A stretch of DNA of 64,000 nt from Candidatus Eremiobacterota bacterium. Its GTDB lineage: Bacteria > Vulcanimicrobiota > Vulcanimicrobiia > Vulcanimicrobiales > Vulcanimicrobiaceae. Numbering within the stretch: position 1 is the stretch's first letter; the number at the start of each line of letters is the position of its first letter. Of this stretch, positions 38,845 to 43,171 are shown in pieces. Where the stretch lies: positions 2,329,300 to 2,393,299 of the forward strand of contig JAFAYE010000001.1 of assembly GCA_019240525.1 (NCBI GenBank). The letters are read 5' to 3'. The position numbers were made by a program, and so were the translations under genes. The notes under the pieces were generated by a model. That model did not search any database, was not told where the DNA came from, and was given only the letters and a program-made list of their open reading frames with translations.

Positions 38845-40425
38845 CTAGCGGCGCTTTGCCGCTGATTTCTTCTTTTTAACGCCTTTCTTGGCGCTAGTTT
38901 TGGCACTCTTTTTGATCGCGCTCTTCTTGAGCGCGCTTTTTCTATGGGTGCTTTTCTTGATCGCGGGCGCCTTGCGCTGCGGCTTTTTCTTGGCAGTTGC
39001 CTTCTTGGCCGTTGCGAAACGCGCCGGTTTTGTTGCGCCGCGCGAGCGCGACGGTTGCTTGCGCGCGGGAACCTTTTGCGTGGTTGCTTTTCGCGTCGCC
39101 GCCGCACGCGGGGGTCGCTTTCGAGCGGGCGCTTTCGGCGCTTTGGCACTCGGTTTTTTCTTTGGCGCGGGCGCCGGCTTCGCGATTCGAGCGGCTTTCG
39201 CGTTCTTGGCCGACGATGACGATTCGGCAGTTCGGCGCGAGGTGCTCGGTTTTGGCGGCGGCGACGGCGGCCGCTTTGAGGCGCGACCTGAGGTGGTCGC
39301 GCGCTTTTTCGGCCCAGTATCACGGGCCGACCGAGTGCCGGAGCGGGATGGAACGCGCTCGGCTTCTTCTGGCAGGCCTAGCTCCGCGCGGCTCAATCCG
39401 GTAATGCTGCTGCCCGGCGCGCTTGGCTGACGGTGCGCTTGCTGCTGCGCCTCGAGATGTTCGCGGGTCGCGCGCAACGCGACGCGCGCCAAGCGGCCGG
39501 CGACCGGGAAAACGATTTCGTTCACGCGCGCATCGTCGAGGAGCTTGAGCACGGCGTCAAAACCGTTGCCTTGATCCTTTGGGCTGTGAGCATCCGAACC
39601 GATCGCAATGCCGACGCCGCGAGCCCTTGCCTTGCGAATCAAGCGCGCGTTGGCATCGAGATATTTCTTCTTCCGATCGTCGGGGTGATCCCGATAAAGA
39701 AAGCGCGTGCTGATTTCGACCGCTAAGCCGCGCCGATGTGCCACGTCGAGCATGCGGTCTTCGTGCTCGTCAAGCTTTTTCTGGGTCGGCCAGCGGCCGA
39801 ACGTTGACGGACCGTAGAAATGCCCCACGACATGCGTCGGAAGCTTTTCGAGGTCGTCAAGGAGCTTGGCCATGTAGAGGTCCCAGAGTTGGTCCGCACC
39901 GACGACCTCGTGCAGCGCGACGAACTCTTCGTTGTCGAACGGCCACGGCCAGTCGCCGCCCTTCTCCGGGTGTTGAATCGGAACGAAGTGCACGGATCGG
40001 ATGATTCCATCGGGACGCATGGCGTCCACGATATTTTGAGCGTCGGGGCGGGCGCGGGGATCGTTATCCATCTCCGCGCCAATCGAGAAGCGCATGCCTC
40101 GACGCAGGCCCTCTGAAACAATCGCCGCGTGCGCGATGTCCACGCCGGCGGTCTCAGCGGCGCCGAGCAAGTCGCCGGCTTGCGCGAGCTTGAGTGCGCG
40201 ACGGACCGTATTGACCGCGCCCGGATCTTCAAACGTCAGGTAGTTAGCGTGATCGGCGACCATGAGGAAGCGTGGAGAGCTGCGCCGGCACGCGTGGTAA
40301 AACCATAGGAAGAGCATTCGCGCTGAATACGCGATCGGTCGTTCCTCGGAGAAAGGACGATGTTCGCCCTTGGCGTGCCCGTGAACGTCGGGAATCGCCG
40401 CGATTCTGGGGTCCGGGGTCGCCAC
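38845..40425 (-). CDS. PHP-domain phosphoesterase with histone-H1-like Lys/Ala/Pro-rich C-terminal tail
   Basis: 526 residues, GTG start. Residues 1-320 are a PHP domain with all metal ligands visible: PDVHGHAKGEH, VADHANYL, GAEMDND, SVHFVPI, VVGHFYG, VEIST and GSDAHSPKD. These domains hydrolyse phosphate esters (histidinol phosphatase) or act as nucleases or proofreading units in DNA polymerases. From about residue 345 to the end runs a strongly basic, low-complexity tail of KKSA, KKA, RKAP and PKKK units like histone H1 or mycobacterial HupB tails, expected to bind nucleic acid. It follows the anti-sigma-Ogt gene by 18 nt. A DNA-damage role is plausible inference. Confidence 0.82.
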   Translation of the reverse strand: MATPDPRIAAIPDVHGHAKGEHRPFSEERPIAYSARMLFLWFYHACRRSSPRFLMVADHANYLTFEDPGAVNTVRRALKLAQAGDLLGAAETAGVDIAHAAIVSEGLRRGMRFSIGAEMDNDPRARPDAQNIVDAMRPDGIIRSVHFVPIQHPEKGGDWPWPFDNEEFVALHEVVGADQLWDLYMAKLLDDLEKLPTHVVGHFYGPSTFGRWPTQKKLDEHEDRMLDVAHRRGLAVEISTRFLYRDHPDDRKKKYLDANARLIRKARARGVGIAIGSDAHSPKDQGNGFDAVLKLLDDARVNEIVFPVAGRLARVALRATREHLEAQQQAHRQPSAPGSSITGLSRAELGLPEEAERVPSRSGTRSARDTGPKKRATTSGRASKRPPSPPPKPSTSRRTAESSSSAKNAKAARIAKPAPAPKKKPSAKAPKAPARKRPPRAAATRKATTQKVPARKQPSRSRGATKPARFATAKKATAKKKPQRKAPAIKKSTHRKSALKKSAIKKSAKTSAKKGVKKKKSAAKRR

Positions 40426-40443
40426 GTTCGCTAAGGTTGGCGT

Positions 40444-41175
40444 CTAGCCCCGGTAGCCCTCCATTTTCAGAATTCGAGCTTTCATTTCGAGTCCGTAGTA
40501 GTAGTCATGCAGATCGCCGGATGAGTCGACCACGCGATGACAAGGGAAGAGAAATGGAAGCGGATTACGCGCCATGACGCGCCCGACCGCACGAGCCGCC
40601 TTCGGCCGACCGATTTGCGTTGCAACCCAGGCGTACGACCGCACTTCGCCGGGGGGGATGCGGGCTGCCGCGCGCAGCACCGACTGTTCGAAGGGCGTCA
40701 GGTCGCTGATATCGATAAGGGCATCGTCGAGTTTCCAGGTGTCGAAGAAACGGTCGAGCGCGCGAACCAGCCAAGGCGGCGCCTCGCCGGGAACGACCCG
40801 CCGATGCAGCCGGCGTTCGGCGCGTGCGACGATCTCCTCGAGCGCTTGTCCGGTATCGAGCGATACGTAGGCGATGCGTTCCGACTTGAGACCGACGTAA
40901 AGCCGGCCAACCGGAGTCGTCAGCGCCGCCAAAACCAGCGGCGGATACTGCGTTCCCTTCAAGGTGGCGATGTGCTGAACGACCTTCTTTGCGAAGTCGC
41001 AGGACGGTTCGGGAGGCGGCAGGCATGAGAGGCAGTACGCAACACCCTCGTACTGCTCGTACATTGCTTGGCACGAAGGGCAGGACCGAAGGTGGCTATG
41101 GACGGTCTCCTTGAGCGATGTTTGGCACTCACCGCGGAGCTCGTCCCACAAAGCCTCAACGTCACGACAACGCAT
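40444..41175 (-). CDS. Anti-sigma zinc-finger domain fused to O6-alkylguanine-DNA alkyltransferase (Ogt)
   Basis: 243 residues from the ATG at 41175; an ATG at 41199 is also possible. Residues 1-45 form a zf-HC2 anti-sigma domain with the zinc motif His28-x3-Cys32-x2-Cys35. Residues 80-145 are the Ogt N-domain (TTPVGRLYVGL). Residues 160-243 are the catalytic domain: PFEQSVLRAAARIPPGEVRSY, PKAARAVG with the Arg finger at 195, PCHRVV with acceptor Cys212, and KARILKMEG with the supporting Glu239. All residues needed for alkyl transfer look intact. It overlaps the ECF sigma gene by 14 bp and is cytoplasmic. It probably holds the sigma factor and senses DNA alkylation; that link is inference. 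Confidence 0.88.
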   Translation of the reverse strand: MRCRDVEALWDELRGECQTSLKETVHSHLRSCPSCQAMYEQYEGVAYCLSCLPPPEPSCDFAKKVVQHIATLKGTQYPPLVLAALTTPVGRLYVGLKSERIAYVSLDTGQALEEIVARAERRLHRRVVPGEAPPWLVRALDRFFDTWKLDDALIDISDLTPFEQSVLRAAARIPPGEVRSYAWVATQIGRPKAARAVGRVMARNPLPFLFPCHRVVDSSGDLHDYYYGLEMKARILKMEGYRG

Positions 41176-41830
41176 GTTGGGGGACTCCTTCAGGAACAAA
41201 ACGGCCGATTTGCGGACCGAGGATGCGTCGCAGGATGCGCACCGCCCGATGGACGTGAGATTTCACCGTGCCGATCGGCTGATTGAGAATCTCGGCGATC
41301 TCGGGATGACTGCGCCCCTCGATGAAGCGCAAGGTTGCGGCCGCACGCAAGTGCATCGGCAACTGCAAGAGCGCCCGCTCGACCAGGGCGATGTCGGTGT
41401 TTTGCTCGACGATCGCTTCGGGCTGTGGCGGCCCTTCGTGCGACTCGCGCAGAATCGCGTCAGGATCGGCGAGCGCATCGAGCGCCACATTCGAAGGACG
41501 TTTGCCGCGCAGACGGTTACGCGTCACATTGAGAGTAATCGTGTAGAGCCATGGCTGCAGCCGAAGATCGGCACGTTGTCCGGACGACATTTTGCCAAGC
41601 GCGCGGTACGCGCGAACGAACGCATCCTGAACGATCTCTTCGGCGTCCTCGCGATTGCCGGTCATGCGCAGCGCGAAACCGTAGAGTCGGCGTTGGTACT
41701 CGTCGACAATCCTTTCGAAATTCGCCACGCTTGGCGCGGAATCGGCGGGACGCCGAACCGCCGCCCTGCGTCCGGGCGTCGTCGCTGATGGCACGTGTAC
41801 TCCCCGCAGGAGTGGCGCGAGCGCGCTCAT
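41162..41830 (-). CDS. ECF-type RNA polymerase sigma factor
   Basis: 222 residues. A 35-residue Arg/Pro-rich leader precedes region 2 (FERIVDEYQRRLYGFALRMTGNREDAEEIVQDAFVRAYRALG) and region 4 (LPMHLRAAATLRFIEGRSHPEIAEILNQPIGTVKSHVHRAVRILRRIL). No region 1.1 or 3 is present, so it is group IV. It is first in an operon with the anti-sigma-Ogt fusion, a PHP-tail protein, EF-G2, a solute-binding lipoprotein and pyrE. An AAGG lies 4 nt before the ATG. Autoregulation is expected but only faintly supported by the upstream sequence. Confidence 0.92.
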   Translation of the reverse strand: MSALAPLLRGVHVPSATTPGRRAAVRRPADSAPSVANFERIVDEYQRRLYGFALRMTGNREDAEEIVQDAFVRAYRALGKMSSGQRADLRLQPWLYTITLNVTRNRLRGKRPSNVALDALADPDAILRESHEGPPQPEAIVEQNTDIALVERALLQLPMHLRAAATLRFIEGRSHPEIAEILNQPIGTVKSHVHRAVRILRRILGPQIGRFVPEGVPQHALS

Positions 41831-41841
41831 ATACCTTACCC

Positions 41842-41869
41842 GACCACCGCTGCCAGGGCCGTGGTTTCA
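41842..41869 (-). promoter_or_regulatory. Speculative ECF-type promoter of the sigma-factor operon
   Basis: On the minus strand TGAAACC (41869-41863) is followed 18 nt later by GTC (41844-41842), just upstream of the sigma gene. This resembles the AAC/GTC core of many ECF promoters, but the elements are short and could be chance. Confidence 0.25.
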
Positions 41870-41967
41870 CGCGCACCCTAAAAATTCCTCAAGTGGTGTC
41901 GTCTTCTGCGTAAATTGAAGGCAGGGGTTTGAGGGCGCGCTCCTAAAGAATGGCCATGCCGCTTTTG

Positions 41968-41985
41968 TTCGGGCCGCAGCCCGAA
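41968..41985 (+). other. Perfect RNA hairpin in the 230-bp gene-free region
   Basis: TTCGGGC-CGCA-GCCCGAA is a perfect 7-bp stem with a 4-base loop, 11 bases before a strong terminator hairpin. Together they look like the 3' part of a small RNA or of an attenuated leader for the gene at 42064. The rest of 41831-42063 holds no gene I can support. An overlapping 31-codon reading frame (41950-42043) is possible but unproven. Confidence 0.5.
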
Positions 41986-41995
41986 GACTTTCGAC

Positions 41996-42035
41996 AAGCC
42001 GCTTTGCTCAGAAGGAGCCAAGCGGTTTTTGTTTT
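41996..42035 (+). terminator. Intrinsic terminator upstream of the gene at 42064
   Basis: AAGCCGCTT-T-GCTC / GAGC-C-AAGCGGTTT forms a 13-bp stem with one mismatch, one G-T pair at the base and a five-base loop (AGAAG), followed by TTTTTGTTTT. No plus-strand gene ends here, so it must terminate a short transcript started in the intergenic region, or act as an attenuator 29 nt ahead of the next start codon. Confidence 0.75.
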
Positions 42036-42063
42036 GCGGGCGTGATGAGGAAAGGTGCGTTTT

Positions 42064-42456
42064 ATGCAGCAAGCCATCGAGCCTACGGAAATTTCGCTGG
42101 ATGCGTACACAATGTGCAGCTTTTTGCCCGCAATCGACTCGGCACGCGCCATTCCGCTTGCGCTCATTGGGTACCGCCAAAGCGAGGATCCGTGGTTCGT
42201 GTGGCTCGTTCCGAAAGATGGGGTCGACCCAACGGGTTTAACGGAGGATCCGTACTACGCCAAAGTGCTGCGCGATCCGCACGGCTACTTTAAGAAGAAG
42301 CTCGCGAAGTACGTCGAGGAAACGGGGTGCGTGAAACGCGGCATCGAGATGCTCATCGACTGTCATCAGAACCACCTCGCGTTCACTCCGCTCACGGAGT
42401 TGCGGGAGCAACCGTTTCGTCACCCCTTACAAGTGGAGTTGGTGGGAGCGTTTTAG
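42064..42456 (+). CDS. Hypothetical soluble protein
   Basis: 130 residues. The ATG at 42064 follows GAGGAAAGG by 9 nt, which decides it over a GTG at 42055. The chain is acidic to neutral with aromatic-rich stretches (YRQSEDPWFVWLVPKDG, DPHGYFKKKLAKYVEE) and three cysteines; no membrane segment or known motif. An intrinsic terminator lies just upstream, so expression may be controlled by read-through. The 3' end overlaps a convergent exported-protein gene by 65 bp. Confidence 0.65.
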   Translation: MQQAIEPTEISLDAYTMCSFLPAIDSARAIPLALIGYRQSEDPWFVWLVPKDGVDPTGLTEDPYYAKVLRDPHGYFKKKLAKYVEETGCVKRGIEMLIDCHQNHLAFTPLTELREQPFRHPLQVELVGAF

Positions 42457-43171
42457 GCGTCGCCCGCATACTGCGGCGATAGCGAATGAGCACCGGCACG
42501 GAGACCGGAGGACGACCCTGCGCCAGACGGGCGTCGAGCGTGAGCGTGATCGCCAGAGCGAGCAGCGTACCGTTCCTGCTCGCATAATAGGCGGTCGCAT
42601 CCATGCGGATCGTACCCGAAACCAGCGTTTCGGAATAACCCGGGAGCGGACCGGTCATTGCACCTTGCGCTTCGAATCGAACCCCGATACTTGGCTGGCT
42701 CTCGATCCGCCCGGCGGGCATCGGTCGAAGGTATCCGTGCAGGACGGCTTCCGCGCCCAAGGGTGAGGTCGCTGCAAAGGGTACGCGCCCACGTAAGGCG
42801 CTCAGCTCGTGAAGCGTGGTGGAATCGAGCCGCACCGCAAACGGCTGATTGAGAATGGTCAGGAAATCGGGATCGTCATCGACGCGATCCTCGAACGCGC
42901 CCTTCGTCGTGAGAACTTGAACGAAGCGCGCCTCGGCGCGACTCTTACCGTCCGGGCCGTTTCGCAGATAACGAGCGTGGGCTTCAAAGCGCCAATTCGA
43001 GCCCTGCTGGCGAATCGAAAGTAACTGCGTGCCGGAGTAAGAGACTCTGGAGGACGTTTGCGATGCTGCGATGCGATAAACGTCGTCCCCCAGCGTGTCG
43101 TACTGGACGTCGGCACGCGCTGGCCCAGCTACCGATAAGAGTGCGGCAACCAAAGCTACGCCAAATTTGAT
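42392..43171 (-). CDS. Exported protein of unknown function with probable ATC start
   Basis: About 259 residues. IKFGVALVAALLSVAGPARA is a textbook signal peptide, but the frame has no ATG, GTG or TTG in front of it. An ATC at 43171 is 6 nt after a CGGAG site and is the likely start. The mature part is soluble and beta-rich in appearance, with no cysteines and no family I recognise. It ends in a Pro/Thr-rich tail. A small gene of unknown function (43237-43554) lies 65 bp upstream in the same direction. The last 65 bp overlap the convergent gene at 42064. Confidence 0.65.
   Translation of the reverse strand: MKFGVALVAALLSVAGPARADVQYDTLGDDVYRIAASQTSSRVSYSGTQLLSIRQQGSNWRFEAHARYLRNGPDGKSRAEARFVQVLTTKGAFEDRVDDDPDFLTILNQPFAVRLDSTTLHELSALRGRVPFAATSPLGAEAVLHGYLRPMPAGRIESQPSIGVRFEAQGAMTGPLPGYSETLVSGTIRMDATAYYASRNGTLLALAITLTLDARLAQGRPPVSVPVLIRYRRSMRATPKTLPPTPLVRGDETVAPATP

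Follow-up and report, generated by a model that had tools for sequence, protein, structure and literature searches.

The anti-sigma factors closest to the one described here are those of the RsiW/SigW and RslA/SigL systems, with which our pair appears to have in common a homologous anti-sigma domain built of helices 1-3 plus a helix 4, the HxxxCxxC motif and a SigW-like sigma factor. Both are membrane-anchored sensors, whereas in our protein a soluble alkyltransferase takes the place of the membrane and sensor part. RsrA, RshA and ChrR resemble it in being soluble zinc anti-sigma factors with four ligands and an autoregulated ECF partner. They sense thiol or singlet-oxygen stress, whereas the present protein carries an alkyltransferase, and we know of no anti-sigma factor of the RsrA/RshA/ChrR type that carries a DNA-repair enzyme.

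In E. coli Ada a self-alkylated repair protein serves as a transcription signal, as we propose here, and the Ogt fold is the same (1sfe); the Ada metal-binding domain recurs, moreover, in ECF-Ogt relatives from Eremiobacterota and Actinobacteria. Ada, however, is an AraC-type activator acting at Ada boxes, whereas here control would consist in the release of a sigma factor, and Pfam detects neither the AraC HTH nor the Ada zinc domain in our protein. An ECF sigma factor encoded with a 6-O-methylguanine-DNA methyltransferase is also found in the group ECF122, which a review, with an example from Cellulomonas, lists without an anti-sigma factor and with its mechanism unexplained (PMC8999054, citing Casas-Pastor 2021). 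The pair studied here comes from another phylum and differs from ECF122, as that review describes it, in that the Ogt is fused to an explicit zinc anti-sigma domain.

Gene layout and conservation of the pair

The locus lies in a Candidatus Eremiobacterota genome, in a window of 64,000 nucleotides at positions 2329300-2393299 of its contig, the whole stretch of DNA that was analysed. The features listed below are all on the minus strand and are given in window positions.

41162..41830, minus strand: ECF sigma factor, 222 aa (Pfam Sigma70_r2 58 bits, r4_2 49 bits)
40444..41175, minus strand: anti-sigma/Ogt fusion protein of 243 aa, start codon ATG at 41175 (translation, 60 homologues)
40951..41175, minus strand: predicted class I anti-sigma domain, fusion residues 1-75 (conservation, AlphaFold helices, profile matches)
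40447..40938, minus strand: complete O6-alkylguanine-DNA alkyltransferase (Ogt), fusion residues 80-243 (PF01035, Foldseek)
40540..40542, minus strand: codon of the acceptor cysteine C212, in PCHRVV (invariant, 60/60)
40591..40593, minus strand: codon of the arginine finger R195 (59/60)
40459..40461, minus strand: codon of E239, Ogt active-site network (60/60)
41840..41869, minus strand: putative autoregulatory ECF promoter TGAAACC-N17-GGTCGG (= TGAAACC-N18-GTC), just 5' of the sigma gene
38845..40425, minus strand: PHP-domain (HisJ-like) protein (NCBIfam histidinol-phosphatase 7.5e-17, below cut-off)

The sigma and fusion genes share an overlap of 14 bp, as an earlier note on this DNA had stated. 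The NCBIfam model closest to the sigma factor is SigW (1.9e-31) and its PDB matches are SigW (5wuq_A) and RpoE (1or7_A); by sequence it is a SigW-like ECF factor. The annotated ATG is probably not its true start, since the -10 of the promoter is a mere 12 bp or so upstream of it; a GTG 12 codons further in, near 41794, has a GGGGAG ribosome site in front of it and is the likelier start. The segment 41794-41830 is the stretch between the annotated ATG and this likelier start.

A search of 98 relatives and retrieval of the corresponding regions yielded 60 complete loci, one per genome, and in all 60 the sigma gene stands directly 5' of the fusion gene on the same strand, which is the opposite of the outcome, a fusion never found beside a sigma gene, that the earlier note had named as speaking against a switch. 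The two genes overlap by 14 bp in 51 loci and by 11 bp in five, and the remaining four show spacings of 0, +5, +5 and +8 bp. The 60 conserved homologues rule out a chance ORF or a mis-start of the fusion. Invariant in all of them are C3, W10, D11, H28, C32, C35, L49, L52, H68, Y181, N204, C212 and E239, and R195 is kept in 59. A profile of residues 1-76, run against 149 genomes of the phylum, gave full-strength matches to the N-terminal domain in just two families, both of the same order, and there in 94 of 103 genomes; the nine genomes of these families without a match are drafts less than 90% complete. The correlation of sigma and anti-sigma distances carries no information, since all the loci descend together. 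One genome (G016) encodes a third ECF factor (L149:1653-2462) that shares 56% identity with the window sigma. Its gene precedes an ORF of 164 aa instead of an Ogt gene, and this factor may be a paralogue whose partner was lost or changed.

Downstream, the PHP-like gene begins 18 bp past the fusion gene and is a possible third member of the operon. It is found in nearly all loci with enough flanking sequence, often with a pyroglutamyl-peptidase-like gene inserted between it and the fusion gene, and an EF-G-like gene is also present downstream. The PHP/HisJ-like protein has a long Lys/Ala/Arg-rich tail, gives no Pfam match at E 0.1, and keeps its synteny across the order. No Rfam element was found in 40000-42500.

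The two halves of the fusion protein

In Pfam searches the fusion protein matches zf-HC2 and Ogt only. The zf-HC2 score is 20.7 bits in the whole protein, just below the cut-off of 22.2, and 23.2 bits, above it, in the genome search. The residue numbers put forward in the earlier note for the zinc motif and the active site (H28, C32, C35, R195, C212 and E239) are all correct; it had missed C3, which is the likely fourth zinc ligand. C3, H28, C32 and C35 are each present in 60/60 homologues, forming the H-x3-C-x2-C motif with an upstream ligand that is typical of class I anti-sigma domains. Against 177,635 PDB sequences the N-terminal profile ranked RsiW first (E 0.0059, over helices 2-4) and RslA second (E 0.14), which points to homology at modest scores. 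All 12 of the weaker profile matches retrieved within the phylum are ORFs immediately 3' of an ECF gene, and several of them have the sequence of a canonical membrane-anchored anti-sigma factor.

The AlphaFold (AF2) model of the fusion (pLDDT 83, pTM 0.71) places helices at residues 3-14, 21-31 and 33-43, a loop at 44-58 and a further helix at 59-73, that is, the three-helix bundle, linker and helix 4 of the class I layout (PMC7406223). In RseA, D11 of helix 1 contacts R149 and R178 of RpoE, and the mutation D11H abolishes RseA activity (PMC7406223). The fusion has an aspartate at the same number in its own helix 1, invariant in 60/60, and R168 of the sigma factor, which aligns to RpoE R149, is an arginine in 60/60; the equivalent of R178 is V197, with an invariant arginine, R198, adjacent to it. 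Foldseek with the fusion model returned alkyltransferases only and no anti-sigma match, perhaps due to the shortness of the domain and the lower confidence with which it is modelled. Since the profile matches, the ECF-adjacent distant matches, the helix layout and the D11/R168 signature agree, and an ECF sigma factor is encoded alongside in every locus, we assign the N-terminal domain, from sequence and model, as an anti-sigma domain, as the earlier note had proposed from the zf-HC2 motif.

The invariant zinc site also provides the basis of the main rival explanation, a redox or electrophile switch in which the zinc-cysteine site (C3/H28/C32/C35, with C48/C51) would be the sensor as in RsrA/RshA, or would itself be alkylated, while the Ogt would be a tethered effector made in response. 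The zinc site and the loop cysteines C48 and C51 could serve redox sensing, which speaks against an alkylation switch; soluble zinc anti-sigma factors are often redox sensors (PMC7406223), and deletion of rshA in C. glutamicum raises cg0186, a putative methylated-DNA methyltransferase gene (PMC3489674). The CxxC formed by C48 and C51 is, however, complete in only 48 of the 60 homologues, one or both cysteines being missing in the other 12, and zinc may have a purely structural role, as it does in RsiW (PMC7406223), which of the solved proteins found is the nearest to the zinc domain. Such an effector could be a separate gene and would need neither fusion to the anti-sigma domain nor a fully conserved C212, and the Ada-type relatives described below retain the ECF-Ogt pairing without the zinc anti-sigma finger. 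We thus judge a redox switch to be unlikely, though deserving of attention.

The loop 44-58 itself (GVAYCLSCLPxxEPS; window 41002-41046) has a mean pairwise identity of 0.73, against 0.59 and 0.44 for the helices around it. Published class I anti-sigma factors have a flexible linker between helices 3 and 4, whereas the fusion has a well-conserved loop there, which is a candidate coupling element between the two halves.

The C-terminal half matches Ogt PF01035 at 98.8 bits (cut-off 27) and, in Foldseek, 4bhb (E 1.2e-11) and 1sfe (E 1.1e-9), its closest structures being M. tuberculosis Ogt, human AGT and the C-domain of E. coli Ada. Conservation within the fusion peaks in the Ogt C-domain, whose mean pairwise identity of 0.75 is just above that of the loop 44-58. 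The two-domain fold, the acceptor C212 in PCHR, the Asn hinge N204, Y181 and E239 (each 60/60) and the arginine finger R195 (59/60) bear out the claim of an intact Ogt/MGMT, and alkyl transfer by this half is predicted from the intact catalytic residues.

Alkyltransferase-like proteins give a signal on binding, with no transfer, and this general precedent, together with the conserved DNA-binding helix-turn-helix and R195, lends something to the idea that the Ogt half need only bind damaged DNA, with no alkylation of C212, to pull the anti-sigma domain off or deliver the sigma factor to the damage. Alkyltransferase-like proteins lose the cysteine, however, and C212 and E239, which are required for the chemistry and not for binding, are present here in 60/60, so that we regard a switch by lesion occupancy as improbable. 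The source genome encodes two further Ogt proteins, one joined to an AraC HTH but lacking the Ada zinc domain and one standing alone (L151:2965-3840; L152:2622-3179), and therefore the fusion pair is not its sole alkylation system.

Promoter and proposed mechanism

The motif TGAAACC-N18-GTC stands at a near-fixed position 5' of the sigma gene in 25 of the 60 loci, compared with 2.2% of random 340-bp pieces, and a looser GAAACC..GGTY version is present in many of the remaining loci. Its -35 element, TGAAAC, resembles that of SigW promoters. With zero mismatch, TGAAACC-N16/17-GGTCNG has a single site in the source genome, before the sigma gene, and the other 28 looser matches (GAAACC-N16/18-GGTC) are nearly all intragenic. 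A one-mismatch scan of the genus revealed no convincing alkylation gene with the motif, and in the scans of source genome and genus the strict motif preceded neither a conserved target nor any alkylation gene outside its own operon. Because the strict form occurs only at this operon and other matches lie mostly inside genes, the sigma operon is likely autoregulated through a conserved ECF-type promoter and a wider regulon is unproven; no second target that is clearly conserved came to light for the regulon that the earlier note has the pair switch on. In four sister genomes (L251-L254) a gene of the pirin family carries TGAAACC/TGCAACC-N17-GGTC about 12 bp before its ATG and is a possible, if weak, candidate for a second target of the sigma factor.

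With the operon itself as the known target, and translational coupling through gene overlap being common, the logic might be reversed, so that the sigma factor or the zinc domain regulates or stores the Ogt, or the fusion merely secures co-production, with no damage-dependent release. The anti-sigma contact signature on both partners, the autoregulatory ECF promoter and the recurrence of the module with AlkB, Tag and Ada in another phylum argue against such an arrangement, to which we give very little credence.

We consider it probable, with appreciable room for doubt, that the two proteins work in the cytoplasm as a sigma/anti-sigma switch reading DNA alkylation, Ada-like but sigma-based. In the resting state the zinc domain would hold the ECF sigma factor, with helix 1 (D11) on sigma4 and helix 4 on sigma2, while the Ogt domain would scan DNA and move the alkyl group of O6-alkylguanine irreversibly onto C212. 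As alkylated Ogt domains in other family members lose stability, the spent anti-sigma factor probably undergoes a conformational change or degradation, and the sigma factor would thereby be freed. Starting at the TGAAACC-N18-GTC promoter, it would then transcribe the operon that encodes it, giving fresh sigma factor and fresh Ogt/anti-sigma protein; repair capacity would increase, and the response would terminate itself once unalkylated protein exceeds the damage.

The alkylation-sensing switch advanced in the earlier note is in this way partly supported, by the anti-sigma identity, the intact Ogt and the obligate ECF pairing, and the theme is reinforced by the AlkB/Tag/Ada operons of Actinobacteria and the Ada-domain pairs of the same phylum, both described below. 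Against it stand the restriction of the strict motif, as far as conserved targets and alkylation genes are concerned, to its own operon, the next gene in the window, which is PHP-like and not a known alkylation gene, and the two other Ogt proteins of the genome mentioned above.

If true, this would be the first anti-sigma factor known to us with a single-acting DNA-repair enzyme as sensor, forming a transcription switch that counts lesions, acts irreversibly and resets itself, and it would open, next to Ada, a second way into the adaptive response. It would also offer a testable mechanism for the unexplained ECF-Ogt association listed as ECF122, and its parts, being small and soluble, lend themselves to reconstruction in E. 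coli. The corresponding statement in the earlier note holds for the full texts searched (a body of literature without many subscription papers), in which no anti-sigma factor with an alkyltransferase is described, and methyltransferases are absent from the main text of a survey of 10,930 class I anti-sigma factors (PMC7406223). It has to be narrowed in that the ECF-Ogt neighbourhood, without an anti-sigma domain, is already in print (ECF122; PMC8999054). The pairing theme is thus on record, and the literature searched holds no account of the zinc anti-sigma-Ogt fusion or of how it would work.

Related ECF-Ogt modules

The same two families contain a second type of pair, without the zinc finger, in which the partner of the ECF factor is an Ogt that begins with a short N-terminal extension and ends in an Ada metal-binding domain (L107:1493-3159, L127-L132); the Ada domain PF02805 scores 45.8 and 55.8 bits in two of them and 18.6 bits, below the cut-off, in a third (L130). 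Among Actinobacteria, ECF>Ogt-Ada pairs with overlapping genes are found in Rubrobacter radiotolerans, Nonomuraea and Streptomyces. Longer operons occur in Arthrobacter (Ogt>ECF>Ogt>AlkB>Tag; L208:2803-5946), Tsukamurella (Ogt>ECF>Ogt>2OG oxygenase>AlkB; L209:3483-6441) and Rhodococcus antarcticus (ECF>Ogt>2OG oxygenase>Ada domain; L210:3995-6723). These actinobacterial operons of the ECF-Ogt-AlkB type are ready-made alkylation response units under a sigma factor, and the actinobacterial ECF-Ogt operons are probably of the ECF122 or a related kind. In Streptomyces sp. NBC_00212 (L207:3389-4735) sigma region 4 (sigma4), Ogt and the Ada metal-binding domain are joined in one chain of 448 residues.

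Taken together, we think it slightly better than an even bet that the modules made of an ECF factor plus Ogt(-Ada) constitute a class of DNA-damage switch of their own, the sigma-based equivalent of Ada, in which a suicide repair enzyme does the sensing for the anti-sigma factor as one of its domains, so that one lesion repaired would spend one anti-sigma factor and free one sigma factor. The class would comprise the zinc anti-sigma and Ada forms of Eremiobacterota, the actinobacterial forms and, once, a single chain. In a sigma tree with long branches the Ogt-linked sigma factors were not all gathered in one clade. When helix 4 of the zinc domain was compared with the extensions at the N-terminus of the Ada-type relatives, hhalign gave a probability of only 6%, a likeness that we do not claim. 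The sigma-linked Ogts have N-terminal extensions of about 33-53 residues, compared with nine in the first Ogt of the Arthrobacter operon. The ECF-Ogt operons of Arthrobacter, Tsukamurella and Rhodococcus are plasmid-borne.
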